64,000 bases of DNA from Paracidobacterium acidisoli. GTDB taxonomy: Bacteria > Acidobacteriota > Terriglobia > Terriglobales > Acidobacteriaceae. Location of the stretch: positions 310,001 to 374,000 of the forward strand of contig NZ_QVQT02000001.1 of the NCBI RefSeq assembly GCF_003428625.2, given 5' to 3'. The notes beneath the pieces are model-generated. The model saw only the letters and a list, made by a program, of their open reading frames with translations. It made no database searches and had not been told where the DNA came from. A program made the position numbers and the translations under genes. Below are positions 54,412 through 63,853 of the stretch, one piece after another; position 1 is the first letter of the stretch; each line of letters opens with the position of its first letter.

Positions 54412-55668
54412 ATGAAGAATGCGTCGTTGAAATCGGCCTGGAGTACGGCCCTGATCCTTTCATTTGCAGGTGGCGCTACACCTCGATATATCCAGGCTGA
54501 ACCTTCTGCCATAGCTGGCGCCATGGGACAGGCCGCACCAGCGCAATCGTATAAACTACCCCAGGCAGATATCACCGAACAGGAGATTCGGCAGCGACTG
54601 ACGGGGAAACAGCTTTTTCTCCGCGGGCTGTGGCTGGACGACGATCTGAACTTCGATGCGCGCGGTGATCTGATGAGCCATTCACCAACGGGTTCATTCA
54701 CCCTGTGCGCAGTTGAAATTCAACGGGTGAGATTAACGAAACACACGCTCGAACTGGAGGGCGTTCGCTATGGAATTCACTTTTTGGGTGAATCGCCATG
54801 GCCGGAGCAGGCCACTTCATATGATCGCATCCGGCTGACGTCAAAGAAAAAAGTACTGAAGATATCCATCAATCGCGCTGATGTGATTCTTCCTAAACAA
54901 ACCCCTGAAGAAAAAGCTGCCCTGAAAAAACAGGAAAAGGAAACCGGACATATCTCCGGCGTTTATTCTTCCGCTGAGGCCGCTGCAGACGCGGCAAAAG
55001 AAGCATCCGCGAATACGCCACCGCCACCGCCACCGCCACCGCCACCGCCCACTCCCACTCCGGGAGCATCTGCCACCACCGACCAAAAGGTTTCGGAGCA
55101 GCCTGCCGGCAACGTGACAGTATCTTCTTACGACGAGGCGTCGGCGATGATGCGCACTGCGCTGGACCGGATTTTCGCTTCCTCGATTGATGCTCAAATG
55201 ATTGCGGCCATGCCGGAATACTGGCGATATTTCTATCAGGCGCAGCAGGATCACAAGTCAATCGAACCGACCGATGCATCCATTGTCCGCCCGGGGCCCG
55301 GAGTTCAGGGGCCAAAGATTGTGCATACCGTGGAGCCCGCTTCCAATGAATATGCGCAGGAAAATGAAATTGCAGGCATAGCGATCTACAAGATCATTCT
55401 CGATCCTGAAGGCAAGCCACTTGGCGTAGCCATTTATCGCCCAATCGGCTTTGGACTCGATGAGAATGCCGTGGATGCGATTCACAAATCCACGTTTACA
55501 GGAGCTACCCGCGAGGGCAAGCCGGTCACTTCCGTAATTAACCTCACCGTGAGCTTCAGGATTTACTCAGAGCGTACAGCCAGAATCGGCTCCGGTGAAG
55601 TCAGGAACATATCGGGCAACGGCTCCGCATCTTCCAGTCCTTCTCCGGCAAATACAGATCAACACTGA
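54412..55668 (+). CDS. Exported protein with TonB C-terminal domain
   Basis: A 418-residue protein with an N-terminal signal or anchor, a novel beta-rich domain (about 45-165, containing LFLRGLWLDDDLNFDARG), a lysine-rich segment, then a run of twelve prolines coded by repeated CCACCG. The C-terminal ~90 residues (IAGIAIYKIILDPEGKPLGVAIYRPIGFGLDENAVDAI) match the energy-transducer TonB fold. The Pro-rich spacer fits a protein that spans the periplasm. Its exact membrane topology is unclear, since the hydrophobic start may be cleaved. Its 3' end overlaps the convergent LytTR regulator gene by 10 bases. Confidence 0.8.
   Translation: MKNASLKSAWSTALILSFAGGATPRYIQAEPSAIAGAMGQAAPAQSYKLPQADITEQEIRQRLTGKQLFLRGLWLDDDLNFDARGDLMSHSPTGSFTLCAVEIQRVRLTKHTLELEGVRYGIHFLGESPWPEQATSYDRIRLTSKKKVLKISINRADVILPKQTPEEKAALKKQEKETGHISGVYSSAEAAADAAKEASANTPPPPPPPPPPPTPTPGASATTDQKVSEQPAGNVTVSSYDEASAMMRTALDRIFASSIDAQMIAAMPEYWRYFYQAQQDHKSIEPTDASIVRPGPGVQGPKIVHTVEPASNEYAQENEIAGIAIYKIILDPEGKPLGVAIYRPIGFGLDENAVDAIHKSTFTGATREGKPVTSVINLTVSFRIYSERTARIGSGEVRNISGNGSASSSPSPANTDQH
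55018..55050 (+). repeat. CCACCG microsatellite in the TonB-like gene
   Basis: About five tandem CCACCG hexamers encode the proline run. Gain or loss of a unit changes length by two prolines without shifting frame. Confidence 0.85.
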
Positions 55669-56471
55669 GCTTCGATAGTGCGCCGGTCAGTTGGCCGGGG
55701 GCCGGCACCCTGGCGGGCAAGAAGCCGGGCAATCCGTGCGCGGTATCCACGGCTTACGGGAACCTTTTGCCCATCTTTCATCAAAACAAAGGATTCCCCC
55801 TGCTGAGGATCGGTGCGGATTTCCTTTACATACTCGAGATTTACGATGGCTGAACGATGAACACGAATAAATGACTCCGGGTTGAGCCGTGTCTCAAACC
55901 GCGCCATCGTTTCGCGAAGAAGATGACTCTCCCGCTCGATGCAGATGCGAACGTAATTTTCTTCGGCGCCGATCCAGCGAATATCAGAAACCGCGAGGAA
56001 AAGAATTCTGCCTTTCGACTTGAACACAATCCGCGATGTATATGCCTTTTCTTCTGCAGTTAACTTCCTGTCTTCAGTGTCGCTTCGAAAACGAGCGATG
56101 TAATCCCTCACGCGTCCTATCGCATGCGCGAGTCTTTCGCGTGTAAATGGCTTCAGCAGATAATCGACAGCATTGATCTCGAAGGCGCGCAAAGCGTATT
56201 GATCATATGCTGTTGTAAAAACAATGCGCGGTGCCTGAAGAGATGGATCAGCACCAATTGCAGAAACAATCTCGAAGCCATCCATGTCAGGCATCTGAAT
56301 ATCGAGGAAAAGAAGATCGGGCTTCGTCTGTCGTACGAGATCAAGGGTACCGAGAGCAGTGGCTCCTTCGCCGACAATTTTGATATCAGCTTCACCGGCA
56401 AGTAACTGACGCAGCTTTTGTCTGGCCAGTAGCTCGTCATCTGCAATAACTGTCCTGACTGCCATATTCAT
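55659..56471 (-). CDS. LytTR-family response regulator
   Basis: A 270-residue regulator. The receiver domain has ADDE (10-13), phosphoacceptor Asp57 in FLDIQMPDMDG, and the Lys in LLKPF. The C-terminal LytTR DNA-binding domain starts around SRIVFKSKGRILFLAVSDIRWIGAEENYVRI and includes the FIRVHRSAIVNLEYV strand. Alternative start Met3 (56465) is better spaced from a purine stretch. The gene overlaps the kinase gene by 35 bases, so production is coupled. It likely binds direct repeats upstream of targets; its output domain is typical of the LytR/AlgR branch. Confidence 0.92.
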   Translation of the reverse strand: MNMAVRTVIADDELLARQKLRQLLAGEADIKIVGEGATALGTLDLVRQTKPDLLFLDIQMPDMDGFEIVSAIGADPSLQAPRIVFTTAYDQYALRAFEINAVDYLLKPFTRERLAHAIGRVRDYIARFRSDTEDRKLTAEEKAYTSRIVFKSKGRILFLAVSDIRWIGAEENYVRICIERESHLLRETMARFETRLNPESFIRVHRSAIVNLEYVKEIRTDPQQGESFVLMKDGQKVPVSRGYRARIARLLARQGAGPRPTDRRTIEAQC

Positions 56472-57711
56472 AACTCACAATACTTCCGTTGTCCTGCGGC
56501 TGAAACTGAAGAGGCAGCATCAGAATGGCCTGTACCTCTCCATCCGGGAATGCCTGCAGGGTAAACCGCTGTTCATTGTCATCGATGCCATAGTGCAGTT
56601 CAAGGCGATTTTTCACGTTGGCGATTCCAACGCGTTCTCTTGTCTTGTTCAGAGGCGGTTCTTCTATCCCTCGCCCTGAATTACGCACGCACAACCGCAG
56701 ATGGCCGTGCTGATTTTGTGCTTCAATCCCAAGAAAGGCTTCTCCGACGGTACGTGCAACTCCATGAAGATACGCGTTTTCCACGACCGGCTGCAGAATC
56801 ATGGCAGGCACCAGCGCGTCATGCACCTCGGGGTCAATAGCGACATAATGATGCACCGTTCCCTGGAAGCGCATTTTCTGGATTGACAGGTAAAGCTGGA
56901 TAAACTCGATCTCCTCGGTCAGAGGAATGAGTTGCGCGTCTCCTCTGTCCAGGGTCATACGCAGCATACTGCTCATTCGTTCCAGCATAATGTCGGCTGC
57001 CTCCACGTCGGACCGCATAAGGCTGGAAATGCTGTTCATCGTATTGAAAAGAAAATGCGGATTGAGCTGCATGCGGAGTGCTCGCAACTGGGCATTAACA
57101 AGTTCACTCTCAAGCCGCATTGCAGAATATTGTTGTTCCCGCAACTTCTGGTAATAGCCGATTCCCCGAAAGAGAAAAAATACCACCCAGAAGATCACCA
57201 GATTATTCAGCAGTTCAGAGTCAACGTAATAGCGGAGTCGATGCAGATACGTCCACGAAGACTGATGGAGAGGGACCTTTGGGAAGCATGCAATCCATAC
57301 CGCCTCTTCCAGAACACTGATGAGCACGCCACCCACAACCCATCTCGTGAGGATCTGAGGCAATGCAGCACGCTGGATTGAACCGCGCAATTTCCACCAG
57401 ATGATCTGACAGATAATGCCCCAGAGAAGGAAATGCCCTTCCCACGGAAAAAACAGAGCACCGAAGCCGACGGAATATTTCATGGAACGAGCCATGACAT
57501 ACTCCTGTAAGGAAAAAAGCGCTCCCAGAATGAGCCATGCCGCCAGAAAGATGGCAGGAGTCATAAGAAAGGGACGGTCGGATTTACCAGGTATGCCAGG
57601 ATGTGTCAGCGGCTGAGACTCCTTTTCGCGGCTGTACCTGCTGGCCAGAATACACCTGAGGTGGCAGAGAATCACTTTCAGGTGTCGTAAGGATGTGTCA
57701 GTCATTGACAT
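56437..57711 (-). CDS. LytS-type sensor histidine kinase
   Basis: A 424-residue kinase from ATG 57711, with AAGGAG 11 bases upstream; GTG 57723 would add four residues. Four membrane helices span ~50-195. The His_kinase (PF06580) box is LNPHFLFNTMNSISSLMRSD, where His is the phosphoacceptor. An ATPase domain with VVENAYLHGVAR and RERVGIANVKNRLELHYG follows. It has no obvious large sensory domain, so the signal probably arises in the membrane. It is paired with the overlapping LytTR regulator and is divergent from the sugar-transport region. Confidence 0.92.
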   Translation of the reverse strand: MSMTDTSLRHLKVILCHLRCILASRYSREKESQPLTHPGIPGKSDRPFLMTPAIFLAAWLILGALFSLQEYVMARSMKYSVGFGALFFPWEGHFLLWGIICQIIWWKLRGSIQRAALPQILTRWVVGGVLISVLEEAVWIACFPKVPLHQSSWTYLHRLRYYVDSELLNNLVIFWVVFFLFRGIGYYQKLREQQYSAMRLESELVNAQLRALRMQLNPHFLFNTMNSISSLMRSDVEAADIMLERMSSMLRMTLDRGDAQLIPLTEEIEFIQLYLSIQKMRFQGTVHHYVAIDPEVHDALVPAMILQPVVENAYLHGVARTVGEAFLGIEAQNQHGHLRLCVRNSGRGIEEPPLNKTRERVGIANVKNRLELHYGIDDNEQRFTLQAFPDGEVQAILMLPLQFQPQDNGSIVSYEYGSQDSYCR

Positions 57712-57755
57712 GCCGGGATTCACTCCTTAGAGTGAGGCTGCTACTTTATCGATAA
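57705..57755 (+). promoter_or_regulatory. Promoter and LacI-like operator of the sugar-transporter unit
   Basis: TTGACA (57705-57710), 17 bases, TAGAGT (57728-57733) on the plus strand. TCACTC-CTTA-GAGTGA (57720-57735) is a perfect inverted repeat over the -10. The palindrome TTATCGATAA (57746-57755) follows at about +6. Read on the minus strand, bases 57760-57741 match 16 of 20 bases of the operator at 59290-59309. Confidence 0.62.
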
Positions 57756-57779
57756 CGTAAATTTTCCATGAGGTATGGA

Positions 57780-57884
57780 ATGTCCTCCCTTCGAACGACG
57801 AAAGCTGTTCTTACAGACAGCCACTTTCTTATTCCGCTTGTCGTGCTGCTGCTGGGAATCATCCTTCTCATTCGGCTGCATTAA
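57780..57884 (+). CDS. Predicted 34-residue single-helix membrane protein
   Basis: ATG 57780 opens a 34-codon frame ending TAA. GAGG lies about 6-9 bases upstream. The peptide has a polar start (SSLRTTKAVLTDSH), then one hydrophobic helix of the sequence FLIPLVVLLLGIILLI and ends RLH. It is placed after the promoter and operator and 58 bases before the transporter start. The transporter's own frame is open through this region, but its translation there is cysteine-rich and unlike any transporter. Small single-helix partners of transporters are known in other systems; whether this is one is not known. Confidence 0.55.
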   Translation: MSSLRTTKAVLTDSHFLIPLVVLLLGIILLIRLH

Positions 57885-57942
57885 TCAGACGAAGAAAATC
57901 AATTCCAGTGCAGATCCACAACTTTCGTCAGAGAAAAAGAAT

Positions 57943-59235
57943 ATGAGTACCAGAGCGGAAATTTTGGCTTCACGACAGATGGGTGCTCTTCACGGACTTG
58001 GGGTGATCTGTGGCTTAGGAGCCGGAGTGTGGCTCGGCGCGGCAGAAGCGCCGACGAAGCTGGTGAACTCTGGTCTTTCCCCATTTGCTGTGTCTCTTTG
58101 CATGGTCGCAGGAGTTTTTACAGCTCGCTGGACCTTCCCCACAATGCTGAAAGGCACAGAGTACGTGTTTGCCGATCTGATGAGAAAAAAGCATCTGATC
58201 GTCTGGGCCATTCTGGCTGGAGCGTTGTGGGCAGTTGCCAATACACTTACCGTTTTCGCTGTCCGCGATGTTGGCCTCGCAGTGGCCTTCCCCCTCTGGA
58301 ATGCCAACTCGCTCATCGGTCTTTTCTGGGGAAGAGTTCTCTTTGGAGAATTAAAAGGAGCAGGAACTGGAACAGTTCTTAAGGTTGTTGCAGGCACCGT
58401 AGCCATTATTGCAGCGGCGATCTTACTTGGCTTCAGCACCATTCACGGCGGATCGACCATGCATCCTCACGCCATTCATGGCGTCATAGCTGCCGCTGGA
58501 GCAAGCCTGTTATGGGGCACAATGTATGTTCCATATCGTAAAGCCTACGTGAGCGGCATGAATCCGCTGTCGTTCGTCACGGCATTTACCGTGGGTGAGC
58601 TGGGAACAATGTTTGCGCTTGTGCTGACCCTTGACGGAGGCACGCATGCTGCTGTCTTTCACTCCAGTCACGTGAAGCCGATGCTCTTCTGGCTCTTTCT
58701 CGGCGGCTTTGTCTGGGTGATTGGCGATCTGCTGCAGCAGTTTGCAACGAAATATCTCGGCATTGGACGCGGTATTCCGCTTTCAAACACGAATCAGCTC
58801 TGGGGACTCGCATGGGGCGCTCTGGTGTTCGGCGAACTGGTGCACGCGCCAGCGACGCAAAAACTGATGGTCATTGCCGGCTCCGCCATCATGATTCTGG
58901 GAGCGCTTTTGATCAGTCTTGCAGCAGCCGGCCAGCAAGAGCACTCCTCAACAAGTGACGCCCTGCTGCGCGAATGCGATCGCTACGGCATGAACTACTC
59001 TCAGGTCCTGGCGGAATATTGCGGCTCCGAATTTGGAAATCGCAGCGAAAAACGCCGGTGGTGGGATTACGCCATCCTCACCGCGGCCGTGGGCCTGTTT
59101 GTCTGGCTGGGTAAAGATGCAGTTGTCCCTGCCCTCGCCATGAACTTCCACTGGCTCATTGCCCTTGTCGCCACTATGATTCTCTGCCTGGCAGCCTGTG
59201 GCTGGGCTCTCTGGAAAACGACCCGCTTTTCATAG
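57943..59235 (+). CDS. GRP/RhaT-type sugar transporter (DMT superfamily)
   Basis: A 430-residue protein with about ten to twelve helices from ATG 57943; the open frame extends to 57775 but that part is not transporter-like. Family marks include LGVICGLGAGVWLGAAEAPTK in helix 1, AVAFPLWNANSLIGLFWGRVLFGEL, and GRGIPLSNTNQLWGLAWGALVFGEL in the repeated second half. It belongs with glucose/ribose porters (GRP) and RhaT-like carriers. Extra soluble residues lie around 330-375. It is followed by inositol oxygenase and a rhamnosidase, so inositol, glucuronate or rhamnose are candidates. Confidence 0.82.
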   Translation: MSTRAEILASRQMGALHGLGVICGLGAGVWLGAAEAPTKLVNSGLSPFAVSLCMVAGVFTARWTFPTMLKGTEYVFADLMRKKHLIVWAILAGALWAVANTLTVFAVRDVGLAVAFPLWNANSLIGLFWGRVLFGELKGAGTGTVLKVVAGTVAIIAAAILLGFSTIHGGSTMHPHAIHGVIAAAGASLLWGTMYVPYRKAYVSGMNPLSFVTAFTVGELGTMFALVLTLDGGTHAAVFHSSHVKPMLFWLFLGGFVWVIGDLLQQFATKYLGIGRGIPLSNTNQLWGLAWGALVFGELVHAPATQKLMVIAGSAIMILGALLISLAAAGQQEHSSTSDALLRECDRYGMNYSQVLAEYCGSEFGNRSEKRRWWDYAILTAAVGLFVWLGKDAVVPALAMNFHWLIALVATMILCLAACGWALWKTTRFS

Positions 59236-59264
59236 TTTCTTCTTAAAAAGGTAAGCGGTTTTCT

Positions 59265-59307
59265 TTGCGCCGGACCTGCGAATTTGCTATAACGTTAGCG
59301 GTAACGT
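59265..59307 (+). promoter_or_regulatory. Promoter and LacI-like operator of the inositol oxygenase gene
   Basis: TTGCGC (59265-59270), 17 bases, TATAAC (59288-59293). The inverted repeat ACGTTA-GCGG-TAACGT (59292-59307) overlaps the -10 and start point, a repressor position. Bases 59290-59309 match 16/20 the minus-strand site at 57760-57741. Confidence 0.72.
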
Positions 59308-59331
59308 AGCCGCATCCGGCGGAGGATTCTT

Positions 59332-60472: not shown

Positions 60473-63400
60473 ATGAGCCCAATTTCAAAAAGATCAGAAC
60501 AGAAGATCTTTACGGCAATTCTTCTTTCTCTGATTTACAGCGTTTCCTGTGCCGCACAGCATCCTGCCACCGCAGCCGCGGCAGGAAAGCCGGATCATCT
60601 GCGATGTGACTCACTGACGTATCCTCTGGGCATCGACACGACTCATCCCCTGCTTTCATGGCAGCTTCACGATGGTCGTTTTGGCGCCCGTCAAACGGCA
60701 TATGAAATTCAGGTGGCCACGACCCCTGCATTGCTGATCGCAGATAAGGCGGATGTATGGAATAGTGGGCGCGTCTCCTCCGATAGCTCAGTGAATGTGC
60801 CCTATACCGGGCCGGCGATGCAGCCTGAGACTCGCTACTACTGGCGCGTAAAGGTATGGGATAAAGCTGGGAAGTTGTATCCGGTAAGTGCTGCGGCCTG
60901 GTGGGAAACCGGCCTGATGTCGAAGGACGCCTGGAAAGCGGAGTGGATTGGCTTCGAGGAAAAGGAAGAGAGCAGTATTCGCAAATCGGGTGCAACGTGG
61001 ATCACCAATCCCGGACAGGAAAACTACAAAATCCCAGGCGAAACACATCATGCGTTCCGCTTTCGGTTCCACCTTCAGCAAACGGCTCGCCGCGCTGATT
61101 TATACGTGGCGGGCAAAGACTCTGTTGCGGCCTGGATGAATGGCCAGGAAGTCCTGACGGCGCTCCCTCTGCCACCGTGGAAACAAACTCCCTGGAAGAC
61201 ATGGACAAAGGTGGATGCAACCAGCGCATTGCACCAGGGAGAAAATCTGCTTGCCATAGATGCAGTTCTTTATGCGGCAAACCCAAATGGAATGCAGACG
61301 GTGAATGGCAGCGAGACCCCAATGAGCGCGTGCCTGTATGTCGAACTGACAGACGGCTCGACCGTGATCTTCACGAGCGGACGAGGGTGGAGAGCAGCAT
61401 TAAATCCTCCTCCGCAGTGGCAGAATCCGCAGTTCAACGATGATGGCTGGCAGGCCGCTGTTCCCTTCATTCCATCTGACACGACGGGAGAAGATGATAA
61501 CGATCCAGGCAATCCGTGGCCCACTGAATCAGTGAAACTGTTGCGAGACACCTTTGATGTGAACAGACCTGTCGTATCAGCGCGGTTGTATATCACGGCG
61601 CTGGGTGCATACCAGGCATGGCTGAATGGGCATCGGGTAGGCGATCAGATTCTCTCACCAGGCTGGACAGATTACCGGATTCGCGTTCCCTATCAGGTCT
61701 TCGATGTAACGAGCGAGTTGAAGCCGGGGAAAAATGCGATCGGAGCATTTCTCGCCCCAGGATGGTATACCACGCCGCTCAAGTGGTTCCGGCAGGGATA
61801 CAACTACGGCTCGACGCCGGACGCGCTGCGGGCACAGCTTCGAGTCGCGTATGCAGATGGATCTGTCGAGTGGGTCAATACGGATGAGCATTGGAAAGCC
61901 GCTGAGTCTCCCATTACAAAAGCAGAAATTTACGACGGCGAAAATTACGACGCTCGACGCGAGCAGACGGGCTGGAGTACAGCACCTTTCTCCGATGCAA
62001 ACTGGAAACCCGCGGAGGTCATTCAGCCCGTTGAACCGGCAATCGTCTCGCAATATTTTCAGCCGATTCGTATGGAAAAAGTATTGTCGGCAAAGAAGCT
62101 GACCAACCCTGCGCCCGGGGTCTACGTTTACGATTCCGGTCAGAATATGTCGGCAGTAGAACGCCTTCGCGTGCAGGGGCCAGCAGGCACAAATATAAAA
62201 ATGAGGTTTGCCGAGGTGTTGAATTCTGACGGCACGCTCTATACCGAAAATCTGCGTACAGCAAAAGCGACCGATCATTACATTCTTTCCGGAAAAGGAG
62301 TCGAAGAATACCAGCCACGATTTACCTTCCACGGCTTTCGTTATGCAGAAATCACTGGCCTGCAAACAAATCCTGGAATCGATGCGCTGAAAGCAGTTGT
62401 AATTCATACTGACGCGCCATTTACGGCGCGTCTGCACACCGGCAGTCCAATAATTAACCAGCTATGGAACAACATCTTATGGGGGCAGCGATCCAACTTC
62501 GTTGGACTACCAACAGATTGTCCTCAGCGCGATGAGCGGCTCGGCTGGACCGCCGATGCTCAGGTCTTCTGGCGTGCCGCATCGTACAACATGGATCTGA
62601 CACAGTTTTCAAAAAAGTTTGCTGCTGATTTGCGAGGCACGCAAAGCGGCACTGCAATGTATGGAATCATTGCCCCCGGAACTGCAAGCTCGAGCCCCGG
62701 TTTTGCCGCTGGCTGGAGCGAAGCAGGCATCATCATACCGTGGACGGACTGGTTCCAGCGGGGGGACAGACGCATTCTCGAAGAGAACTGGGATGCAATG
62801 CAGAAATATCTGAGTGCGATCCACCAGGCTAACCCTGATTATTTATGGGCAAAGGAATATGGCATATCGTTCGGCGATTGGCTGTCTCCGGAAGGAAAAA
62901 CCGATGAGACTCTGATCGCCACGGCCTACTGGGCCTACGATGTTTCATTGATGCGAGAAATGGCCCACGCGCTGGGAAAAACTAAAGAAGAACAGCAATA
63001 CGCAATTCTTTTCGGCCACATTCGCGACGCCTTCGATAAGGCCTTTGTTCACTCCGACGGATTTGTCGCTGGCGCGGATAACAGTGCTTCATCTTTTGGA
63101 CAGATTAATAACCCCAATGCAAAGAGCCATGGCGGCGACACGCAGACCGGATACGTGCTGGCGCTGCATATGAATCTTCTGCCAAACACGCTTCGTCGTG
63201 CGGCCGCAGAAAAGCTGGTTGAGAAGATTCGCGAGAATGGATGGCGGCTGGGAACAGGATTTCTGGGAACTCCATACCTGTTGTCGGTACTCGTCGATTC
63301 CGGTCATGCAGATATCGCATACCGCTTGCTGCTCAATACTGATTATCCATCCTGGGGATATCTCGTTGACCATGGCGCGACAACGATGTGGGAGCGCTGG

Positions 63401-63853
63401 AACGGCGACAAAATGCGAGATGACCCCAGTATGAATTCCTACAATCACTATGCCTATGGTGCCGTTGCTGACTGGATCTACGGTTATGCTGCGGGCGTGG
63501 ATGCGACCCCGGACGATCCGGGATTTCATACCATTTACCTTCACCCGAATTTCGATCGCCGGATTGGCAGCGTTGACTTCTCTTACGATTCGTCCTATGG
63601 ACAAATCAAATCAGCATGGTCGATTCAGGATTCAACCGTTACGTGGCAATTCACGATACCGCCGAACACCACAGCTCTTTTGTCAGAGAATAATGCCGGC
63701 ATGCGTCCATTCACACTGGATGGCGCGGCTCTGGATGATAGCCCAAAGGTGCATTTGAGTGAAATGGCCGAGGGCGAAAAAGTCTACAGGTTTCCAGCTG
63801 GCTCGTACGTGCTCAAAGCGGTTTTGCCGCCTCAGCCTCTCTCCGGAAACTAA
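60473..63853 (+). CDS. GH78 alpha-L-rhamnosidase
   Basis: A 1126-residue exported enzyme with the standard GH78 order. A signal peptide ends near SVSCAAQ. An N-terminal fibronectin-like domain (CDSLTYPLGIDTTHPLLSWQLHDG) is followed by two beta-sandwich domains. The (alpha/alpha)6 catalytic domain has DCPQRDERLGWTADAQVFW with the acid and DExx residues, and GDWLSPEGK. The C-terminal beta-sandwich ends at KAVLPPQP. It releases L-rhamnose from glycans or glycosides in the periplasm or outside. No sequence-specific operator like that upstream of the neighbours was seen before it; GAGC-like sites before ATG 60473 are weak. Confidence 0.94.
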   Translation: MSPISKRSEQKIFTAILLSLIYSVSCAAQHPATAAAAGKPDHLRCDSLTYPLGIDTTHPLLSWQLHDGRFGARQTAYEIQVATTPALLIADKADVWNSGRVSSDSSVNVPYTGPAMQPETRYYWRVKVWDKAGKLYPVSAAAWWETGLMSKDAWKAEWIGFEEKEESSIRKSGATWITNPGQENYKIPGETHHAFRFRFHLQQTARRADLYVAGKDSVAAWMNGQEVLTALPLPPWKQTPWKTWTKVDATSALHQGENLLAIDAVLYAANPNGMQTVNGSETPMSACLYVELTDGSTVIFTSGRGWRAALNPPPQWQNPQFNDDGWQAAVPFIPSDTTGEDDNDPGNPWPTESVKLLRDTFDVNRPVVSARLYITALGAYQAWLNGHRVGDQILSPGWTDYRIRVPYQVFDVTSELKPGKNAIGAFLAPGWYTTPLKWFRQGYNYGSTPDALRAQLRVAYADGSVEWVNTDEHWKAAESPITKAEIYDGENYDARREQTGWSTAPFSDANWKPAEVIQPVEPAIVSQYFQPIRMEKVLSAKKLTNPAPGVYVYDSGQNMSAVERLRVQGPAGTNIKMRFAEVLNSDGTLYTENLRTAKATDHYILSGKGVEEYQPRFTFHGFRYAEITGLQTNPGIDALKAVVIHTDAPFTARLHTGSPIINQLWNNILWGQRSNFVGLPTDCPQRDERLGWTADAQVFWRAASYNMDLTQFSKKFAADLRGTQSGTAMYGIIAPGTASSSPGFAAGWSEAGIIIPWTDWFQRGDRRILEENWDAMQKYLSAIHQANPDYLWAKEYGISFGDWLSPEGKTDETLIATAYWAYDVSLMREMAHALGKTKEEQQYAILFGHIRDAFDKAFVHSDGFVAGADNSASSFGQINNPNAKSHGGDTQTGYVLALHMNLLPNTLRRAAAEKLVEKIRENGWRLGTGFLGTPYLLSVLVDSGHADIAYRLLLNTDYPSWGYLVDHGATTMWERWNGDKMRDDPSMNSYNHYAYGAVADWIYGYAAGVDATPDDPGFHTIYLHPNFDRRIGSVDFSYDSSYGQIKSAWSIQDSTVTWQFTIPPNTTALLSENNAGMRPFTLDGAALDDSPKVHLSEMAEGEKVYRFPAGSYVLKAVLPPQPLSGN

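Follow-up and report, generated by a model that had tools for sequence, protein, structure and literature searches.

The window, i.e. the whole stretch of 64,000 nucleotides of the Paracidobacterium acidisoli genome analysed here (C1:310001-374000), carries on its plus strand genes for a membrane microprotein, a sugar transporter and a myo-inositol oxygenase (MIOX), together with two sites of the LacI operator type (Table 1). The transporter reaches 49.8 bits against the Pfam family Sugar_transport (PF06800, gathering cut-off 26.3) and also exceeds the Pfam cut-off for TMEM144, a likeness to both the RhaT/GlcU symporters (TIGR00776) and TMEM144; its 37.7 bits against TIGR00776 are far below the cut-off of 319.6, and judged by these scores it is a relative of the RhaT/GlcU subfamily and not a member. 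A comparison with solved structures returned for it a single, irrelevant match (E 0.24), and its closest named relatives are found in Granulicella, Edaphobacter, Terriglobus and other Acidobacteriaceae. The MIOX protein carries the MIOX domain and aligns with the inositol oxygenase 2huo (E 4e-75) with conservation of the catalytic segments HLLQTSE, FIHDLGK, GHDGYI, RFHSFYAWH and YDLY, within which we take the metal-ligand histidines and aspartates to lie. Two neighbours complete the picture: a histidine kinase and LytTR response regulator pair (55659-57723, minus strand) diverges from the transporter, and a large gene for a GH78 alpha-L-rhamnosidase (60473-63853, plus strand) lies downstream of MIOX.

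Table 1. Features of the locus and the candidate regulator gene (window coordinates unless a contig is named)
Feature	Position	Strand	Basis or remark
Promoter, sigma-70-like TTGACA-17-TAGAGT	57705..57733	+	Scan, 10/12 consensus matches; consensus match only
Operator 1, LacI type	57741..57760	-	Core GTTATCGATAAA at 57745-57756, 9/10 core positions
Membrane microprotein, 34 aa, single helix	57780..57884	+	MSSLRTTKAVLTDSHFLIPLVVLLLGIILLIRLH (stop included); first gene of the transporter unit
Sugar transporter related to RhaT/GlcU and TMEM144, 430 aa	57943..59235	+	PF06800
Promoter-like TTGCGC-17-TATAAC of the MIOX gene	59265..59293	+	Read by eye, absent from scan output
Operator 2, LacI type	59290..59309	+	Core GTTAGCGGTAAC at 59294-59305
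Myo-inositol oxygenase (MIOX), 286 aa	59332..60192	+	PF05153, E 1.6e-105
Candidate cognate LacI gene	Contig C8, 507,548-508,555		Outside the window; ortholog of the MIOX-linked clade

A preliminary description of this DNA had proposed that the two sites are related LacI-like operators in opposite orientation, agreeing at 16 of 20 positions. Direct reading gave TTACGTTATCGATAAAGTAG for operator 1 (minus strand, 57760-57741) and TAACGTTAGCGGTAACGTAG for operator 2 (plus strand, 59290-59309), which bears out this agreement. Both are even palindromes with a central CG, operator 1 having one imperfect arm, and both lie in the promoter region upstream of a start, the features expected of LacI-family operators: in a large survey of this family, the sites are even palindromes with CG at the centre, and over 75% of them are located 30-140 bp upstream of the start (PMC4052901). 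Since both sites are near-palindromes (the palindrome match at operator 2 was obtained on both strands), their orientation is uninformative, and the opposite orientation is not a real property of the pair. The sigma-70-like promoter ends 7 nt before operator 1 and likely serves the microprotein-transporter unit, the core of the operator starting 35 nt upstream of the microprotein start; promoters of this kind occurred at two places in the window, against a shuffle mean of 0.8. Upstream of MIOX, the hexamers TTGCGC (59265-59270) and TATAAC (59288-59293) are separated by 17 nt, the -10 hexamer overlaps operator 2, and the operator core starts 38 nt before the MIOX start codon. The spacing of 17 bases ascribed to both promoters is thus found by the scan in the first case and by eye in the second, which the scan did not list, and the sequence supports the idea that the positions of both sites would suit repression.

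The frequency of the motif was assessed over the 5,001,827 bases (15 contigs) of the genome, a scan which the preliminary description had suggested. The joint pattern of both sites, WACGTTANCGNTAANGTAG, which matches them without mismatch by construction, had no match besides these two in the whole genome at 0 or 1 mismatch; at 2 mismatches it recovered both sites again on their opposite strands, together with one additional place, and up to 3 mismatches it gave 22 matches, against 57 for a reversed control pattern. The strict core GTWANCGNTWAC, which was picked after an exploratory scan, occurs at 6 places in the genome and its reversed control at 7. The motif is therefore not over-represented genome-wide, and what the scan yielded instead is one core place that heads a cluster containing a LacI gene. 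This site and the one at MIOX are clearly intergenic and upstream of genes, three of the other places fall in or at the end of open reading frames, and one is ambiguous. A loose 14-base pattern with up to 3 mismatches gave 30 matches in the window, against a shuffle mean of 16.3; alone it says little, and the case rests on conservation in relatives. Moreover, in all of the 38 genomes scanned, 19 with the LacI clade defined below and 19 without it, the looser ACGTTANCGNTAACGT with up to 2 mismatches gave fewer matches than its reversed control. The regulon therefore seems small, and a wide genome-scale regulon was dropped from consideration.

The statement that the window holds no LacI gene was correct: among 12 hits of the LacI helix-turn-helix domain in the genome, 11 of them over the cut-off, none falls in C1:310001-374000. 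One gene on contig C8 encodes a protein with both domains of the family (PF00356, 57.2 bits, cut-off 27; sugar-binding domain PF13377, 120.4 bits, cut-off 26.5), is the sole gene of the genome at E 1e-80 or better in the clade search, and groups in a LacI tree with the clade linked to MIOX in relatives (node of 18 rows, support 97/94). It lies on one strand with genes for an APC permease, a PfkB kinase and a GH4 glycosidase, with short gaps or overlaps between them; these genes apparently form one operon, which is headed by the third core site, ATACGTTAGCGCTTACGACG. A gene for an outer-membrane beta-barrel protein diverges from the cluster. The GH4 gene has two NCBIfam matches, to alpha-galactosidase and alpha-glucosidase, both far below the cut-off. 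Homologs of the C8 PfkB and GH4 genes are found in the MIOX neighbourhoods of four relatives (G053, G153, G127, G147), and homologs of the permease in those of G127, G147 and G053, among others. What lies together in other genomes thus seems to be distributed over two places in P. acidisoli, the shared operator joining both. In G053 (L170:5671-10257), the LacI gene that diverges from a PfkB-GH4-MIOX row is another one, with about 33% identity to the LacI of P. acidisoli (L024), which likely reflects a change of regulator.

Gene linkage was examined in 200 genomes of the same family. MIOX was detected in 64 of them and a close transporter in 83 (match at E below about 1e-90; 102 genomes have any match). 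The transporter is present in 58 of the 64 genomes with MIOX versus 25 of the 136 others, and the two genes lie within 6 kb of each other, by coordinates, in 41 of the 64. The LacI clade (identity of at least 56% to the query C8:507548-508552, the next matches having at most 53%) was found in 23 genomes, P. acidisoli included; all 23 hold the transporter and 22 also MIOX, which in G137 is represented only by a match of 45 residues. In 19 of the 23, the LacI gene is a direct neighbour of MIOX or the transporter, the exceptions being G000, G063, G016 and G113; in many relatives a LacI gene is located between or beside these two genes. The neighbourhood gene calls were greedy and missed MIOX or the transporter in some loci, and absences were therefore counted by tblastn. 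In P. acidisoli itself the LacI gene is not beside MIOX, which is a counter-point to a common regulon. The preliminary description had also tied the transporter to inositol; the gene linkage upholds this tie, and inositol as the substrate is a prediction. It is possible, though somewhat doubtful, that the operators and the repressor function as we propose while the inducer and the cargo are something other than free myo-inositol, such as glucuronate, a different polyol, or an inositol glycoside like galactinol, which the GH4 enzyme would cleave. This would agree with the GH4 glycosidase, PfkB kinase and APC permease that the regulon seems to include and with the 25 of 83 transporter genomes without MIOX, whereas the transporter accompanies MIOX in 58 of 64 genomes and the MIOX protein aligns over its catalytic segments with a solved inositol oxygenase, both of which argue for inositol itself.

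The distribution of the operator in these relatives provided the main support for a shared regulator. Among genomes with the LacI clade, 20 of 21 have the core GTWANCGNTWAC in the 150 bp preceding MIOX (19 of 20 without P. acidisoli). The same is true of 2 of 41 genomes lacking the clade, and none of 393 control windows, taken upstream of the other genes predicted in these loci, contains the core; the control windows come from automatic calls of open reading frames of at least 200 residues, some of which may not be genes. The comparison covers the 62 of 64 MIOX genomes with usable upstream DNA, G107 and G137 being left out, and the beginnings of the 20 cores precede the MIOX start by 36-72 nt. 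A relaxed core (9 of 10 positions) gave a weaker contrast, with 20/21, 8/41 and 9/393 respectively. At the transporter unit, 12 of 22 genomes with LacI and 2 of 38 without had an upstream core of 9/10 or better, the remaining 10 of the 22 having none; its distance to the microprotein in these 12 loci, P. acidisoli included, is 35-62 nt in nine and 72, 74 and 112 nt in the others. The Fisher tests made on these counts treat the genomes as independent. In a MIOX tree of 61 rows (G107, G137 and G170 (short) left out), four supported independent pairs were available, in which the operator follows LacI in 2.9 on average and opposes it in 0.0, too few for significance. The exceptions are G128 and G065, in which the operator is present and the LacI clade is lacking (a relative with 52% identity occurs in G065), and G016, which has LacI and a core of only 8/10; the LacI clade and the operator were both unseen in G053 and G153, the two relatives closest by MIOX. 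A chance resemblance of the two promoter regions could be argued from the genome counts, 6 for the core and 7 for its reversed control. Given the position-specific core upstream of MIOX orthologs in 19 of 20 other LacI genomes against 0 of 393 control windows, we consider the probability of such a coincidence negligible, and it was rejected on the footprint in relatives.

These data back the earlier proposal that LacI-like operators join the transporter and MIOX, and they add a candidate cognate repressor, as the genome of P. acidisoli holds a LacI of the clade that co-occurs with the operator. Both the observation and the main interpretation of the preliminary description hold. We consider it likely that both sites are operators of one LacI-family repressor controlling a small regulon for inositol use. 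A different or second LacI paralog might bind the operators of the window, the C8 regulator serving its own cluster only; the 11 helix-turn-helix hits over the cut-off, the operator without the clade in G128 and G065, and a recognition helix that is similar in regulators about 50% identical would be compatible with such an arrangement. We regard it as unlikely, given that the operator and the C8-type LacI clade co-occur in relatives and that the same core is present at the C8 cluster.

A second comparison was made with named genomes, for which 80 of 120 confirmed transporter loci were kept and LacI was defined by at least 55% identity. The core was found anywhere in the locus in 31 of 35 loci with LacI versus 5 of 45 without, and within 150 bp upstream of MIOX in 23 of 27 versus 3 of 16; some of these records are the same genomes as in the set of 200, so that this check is partly independent. 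Terriglobus roseus DSM 18391 and Granulicella mallensis each have MIOX, the microprotein, the transporter, LacI and two cores. The cassette together with the core was also present in Alphaproteobacteria, namely Asticcacaulis taihuensis (L315), Sphingomonas pokkalii (L327) and two Sphingomonas records (L318, L323); in these four, MIOX diverges from the microprotein, transporter and LacI genes and the core lies near the MIOX start, that of L327 being outside the 150-bp window as aligned. Three loci (L279, L307, L325) have LacI and MIOX and no core within 150 bp of MIOX, one of which, the alphaproteobacterial metagenome-assembled genome (MAG) L307, has the cassette genes without the core, and the proteobacterial loci L299, L300, L301, L308 and L312 have no MIOX within the stretch examined. 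MAGs may be mis-binned, and L315 and L327 are named strains. The occurrence of cassette and core in Alphaproteobacteria therefore suggests that the cassette has been transferred between this group and the Acidobacteriota.

The same loci, which span only some kb around the transporter or MIOX, were used to follow the other neighbours. With tblastn, the histidine kinase of the window was matched in none of 80 loci of relatives (E 1e-20) and in one of 80 named loci (E 1e-15), and the GH78 rhamnosidase was matched in none of either set at the same thresholds. In G053, the genes that diverge from the transporter (L171:6319-9610) encode a HisKA kinase, a regulator of the OmpR type and a SpoIIE-type protein, and L173 and L187 carry regulator labels like these; the HisKA/OmpR-type pair of L171 is of a different kind from the LytTR pair of the window. 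Operator 1 might serve the divergent kinase and LytTR pair instead of, or besides, the transporter. The earliest possible kinase start is 18 nt downstream of this site, and in G053 (by label also in G153 and G107) a regulator pair, albeit a different one, diverges from the transporter; however, the kinase is practically absent from the loci compared and the distance between operator and microprotein is kept in 9 of 12 loci, and we therefore consider this quite unlikely. The LytTR pair was dropped as an operator target, as it is not kept near the cassette in relatives. The transporter could also be a rhamnose carrier belonging with the GH78 gene, in line with its RhaT-like family and the position of this gene downstream of MIOX. 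Such a role seems highly improbable, since the rhamnosidase is unmatched in both sets of loci and linkage to MIOX is common; the link to rhamnose was dropped because the GH78 gene is not kept near the cassette.

The least expected part of the system is the microprotein, whose open reading frame sits between operator 1 and the transporter and encodes one hydrophobic helix. A motif-guided search located it in 51 of 60 loci with the transporter. Over 280 pairs of microprotein DNA, differences at codon positions 3, 1 and 2 numbered 3599, 1842 and 927, and 53% of codon changes were synonymous versus 28% expected for random single changes; the reading frame thus shows the pattern of a protein-coding gene subject to purifying selection. 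A profile built from 22 sequences (threshold E 0.01) detected it in 84 of the 200 genomes, among them 81 of the 83 with the transporter. This companion and the score below the TIGR00776 cut-off set the present transporter apart from the RhaT/GlcU sugar-proton symporters. Directly upstream of the transporter on the same strand lie 75 of the 88 hits (median gap 55 nt); of the other 13, eight are close to MIOX or the transporter, and five are on contigs without MIOX and transporter or in genomes without the transporter. The microprotein is also present in 70 of the 80 named loci. It has no match in Pfam or NCBIfam and a literature search on it found nothing relevant; it is possibly a new family, and a candidate for a new small transporter subunit. 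More tentatively, and with less than even confidence, we propose that LacI, MIOX, the RhaT-like transporter and the microprotein constitute a mobile, self-regulated module by which soil bacteria use inositol, and that it has passed, operators included, between Acidobacteriota and Alphaproteobacteria, the microprotein being an obligate small partner of the transporter, from an undescribed family, acting in its assembly, stability or gating.

The mechanism would likely be classical LacI-type repression of a small catabolic regulon, for which we infer binding, repression, operon structure, effector and cargo from sequence comparison. In the absence of an inducer, the C8 repressor would block transcription at both sites: at MIOX it would bind operator 2 and so cover the -10 region and start site of the promoter, and at the microprotein-transporter unit it would sit on operator 1, immediately downstream of the promoter there. 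The inducer, most likely myo-inositol or a close product, would release the repressor; the substrate would then be taken up and MIOX would convert myo-inositol to D-glucuronate. One repressor, encoded outside the window, would probably switch on both units together when inositol or a related compound is available, and through the third operator, which heads the row of permease, PfkB kinase, GH4 hydrolase and LacI genes, it would control its own synthesis too. Systems of this kind are already known. The local LacI sugar regulons of the survey mentioned above (PMC4052901) resemble the present case in their CG-centred even palindromes and in having the regulator in or near the catabolic genes. 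IpsA of Corynebacterium, as the report on it describes, is a LacI-type regulator with palindromic sites, from which myo-inositol releases it in vitro (PMC3899939). The present regulator is like IpsA in family and in type of site, the effector being described for IpsA and predicted here; unlike IpsA, which activates inositol synthesis (ino1), it is predicted to repress inositol breakdown. A MIOX regulon under this LacI was not found described, no MIOX regulon being among the papers listed by our literature searches. Moreover, the survey covers 344 genomes of 7 phyla, and the string 'Acidobacteri' is absent from its main text (PMC4052901), so that the proposed regulon falls in a phylum unmentioned there. 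The analysis puts forward a testable repressor for MIOX-dependent inositol breakdown, along with a likely inducer and three candidate operators, and such a repressor could serve as an inositol sensor for MIOX-based production of glucaric acid.

Concerning the fate of inositol, IolE, a marker of the classical iol pathway, had no hit over the cut-off in the genome of P. acidisoli (7 weak hits below it). Genes for KdgD and UxaC are present elsewhere in this genome, so that a route from myo-inositol to glucuronate and then through the glucarate or the isomerase branch is possible. Short loci around both genes contain no strict core, and they were dropped as further targets. In one relative (G147, L176:600-2872), the neighbourhood of MIOX and LacI includes genes for KdgD and for an MFS carrier of the galactonate type, each scoring above its cut-off, which gives a hint of the glucarate branch.
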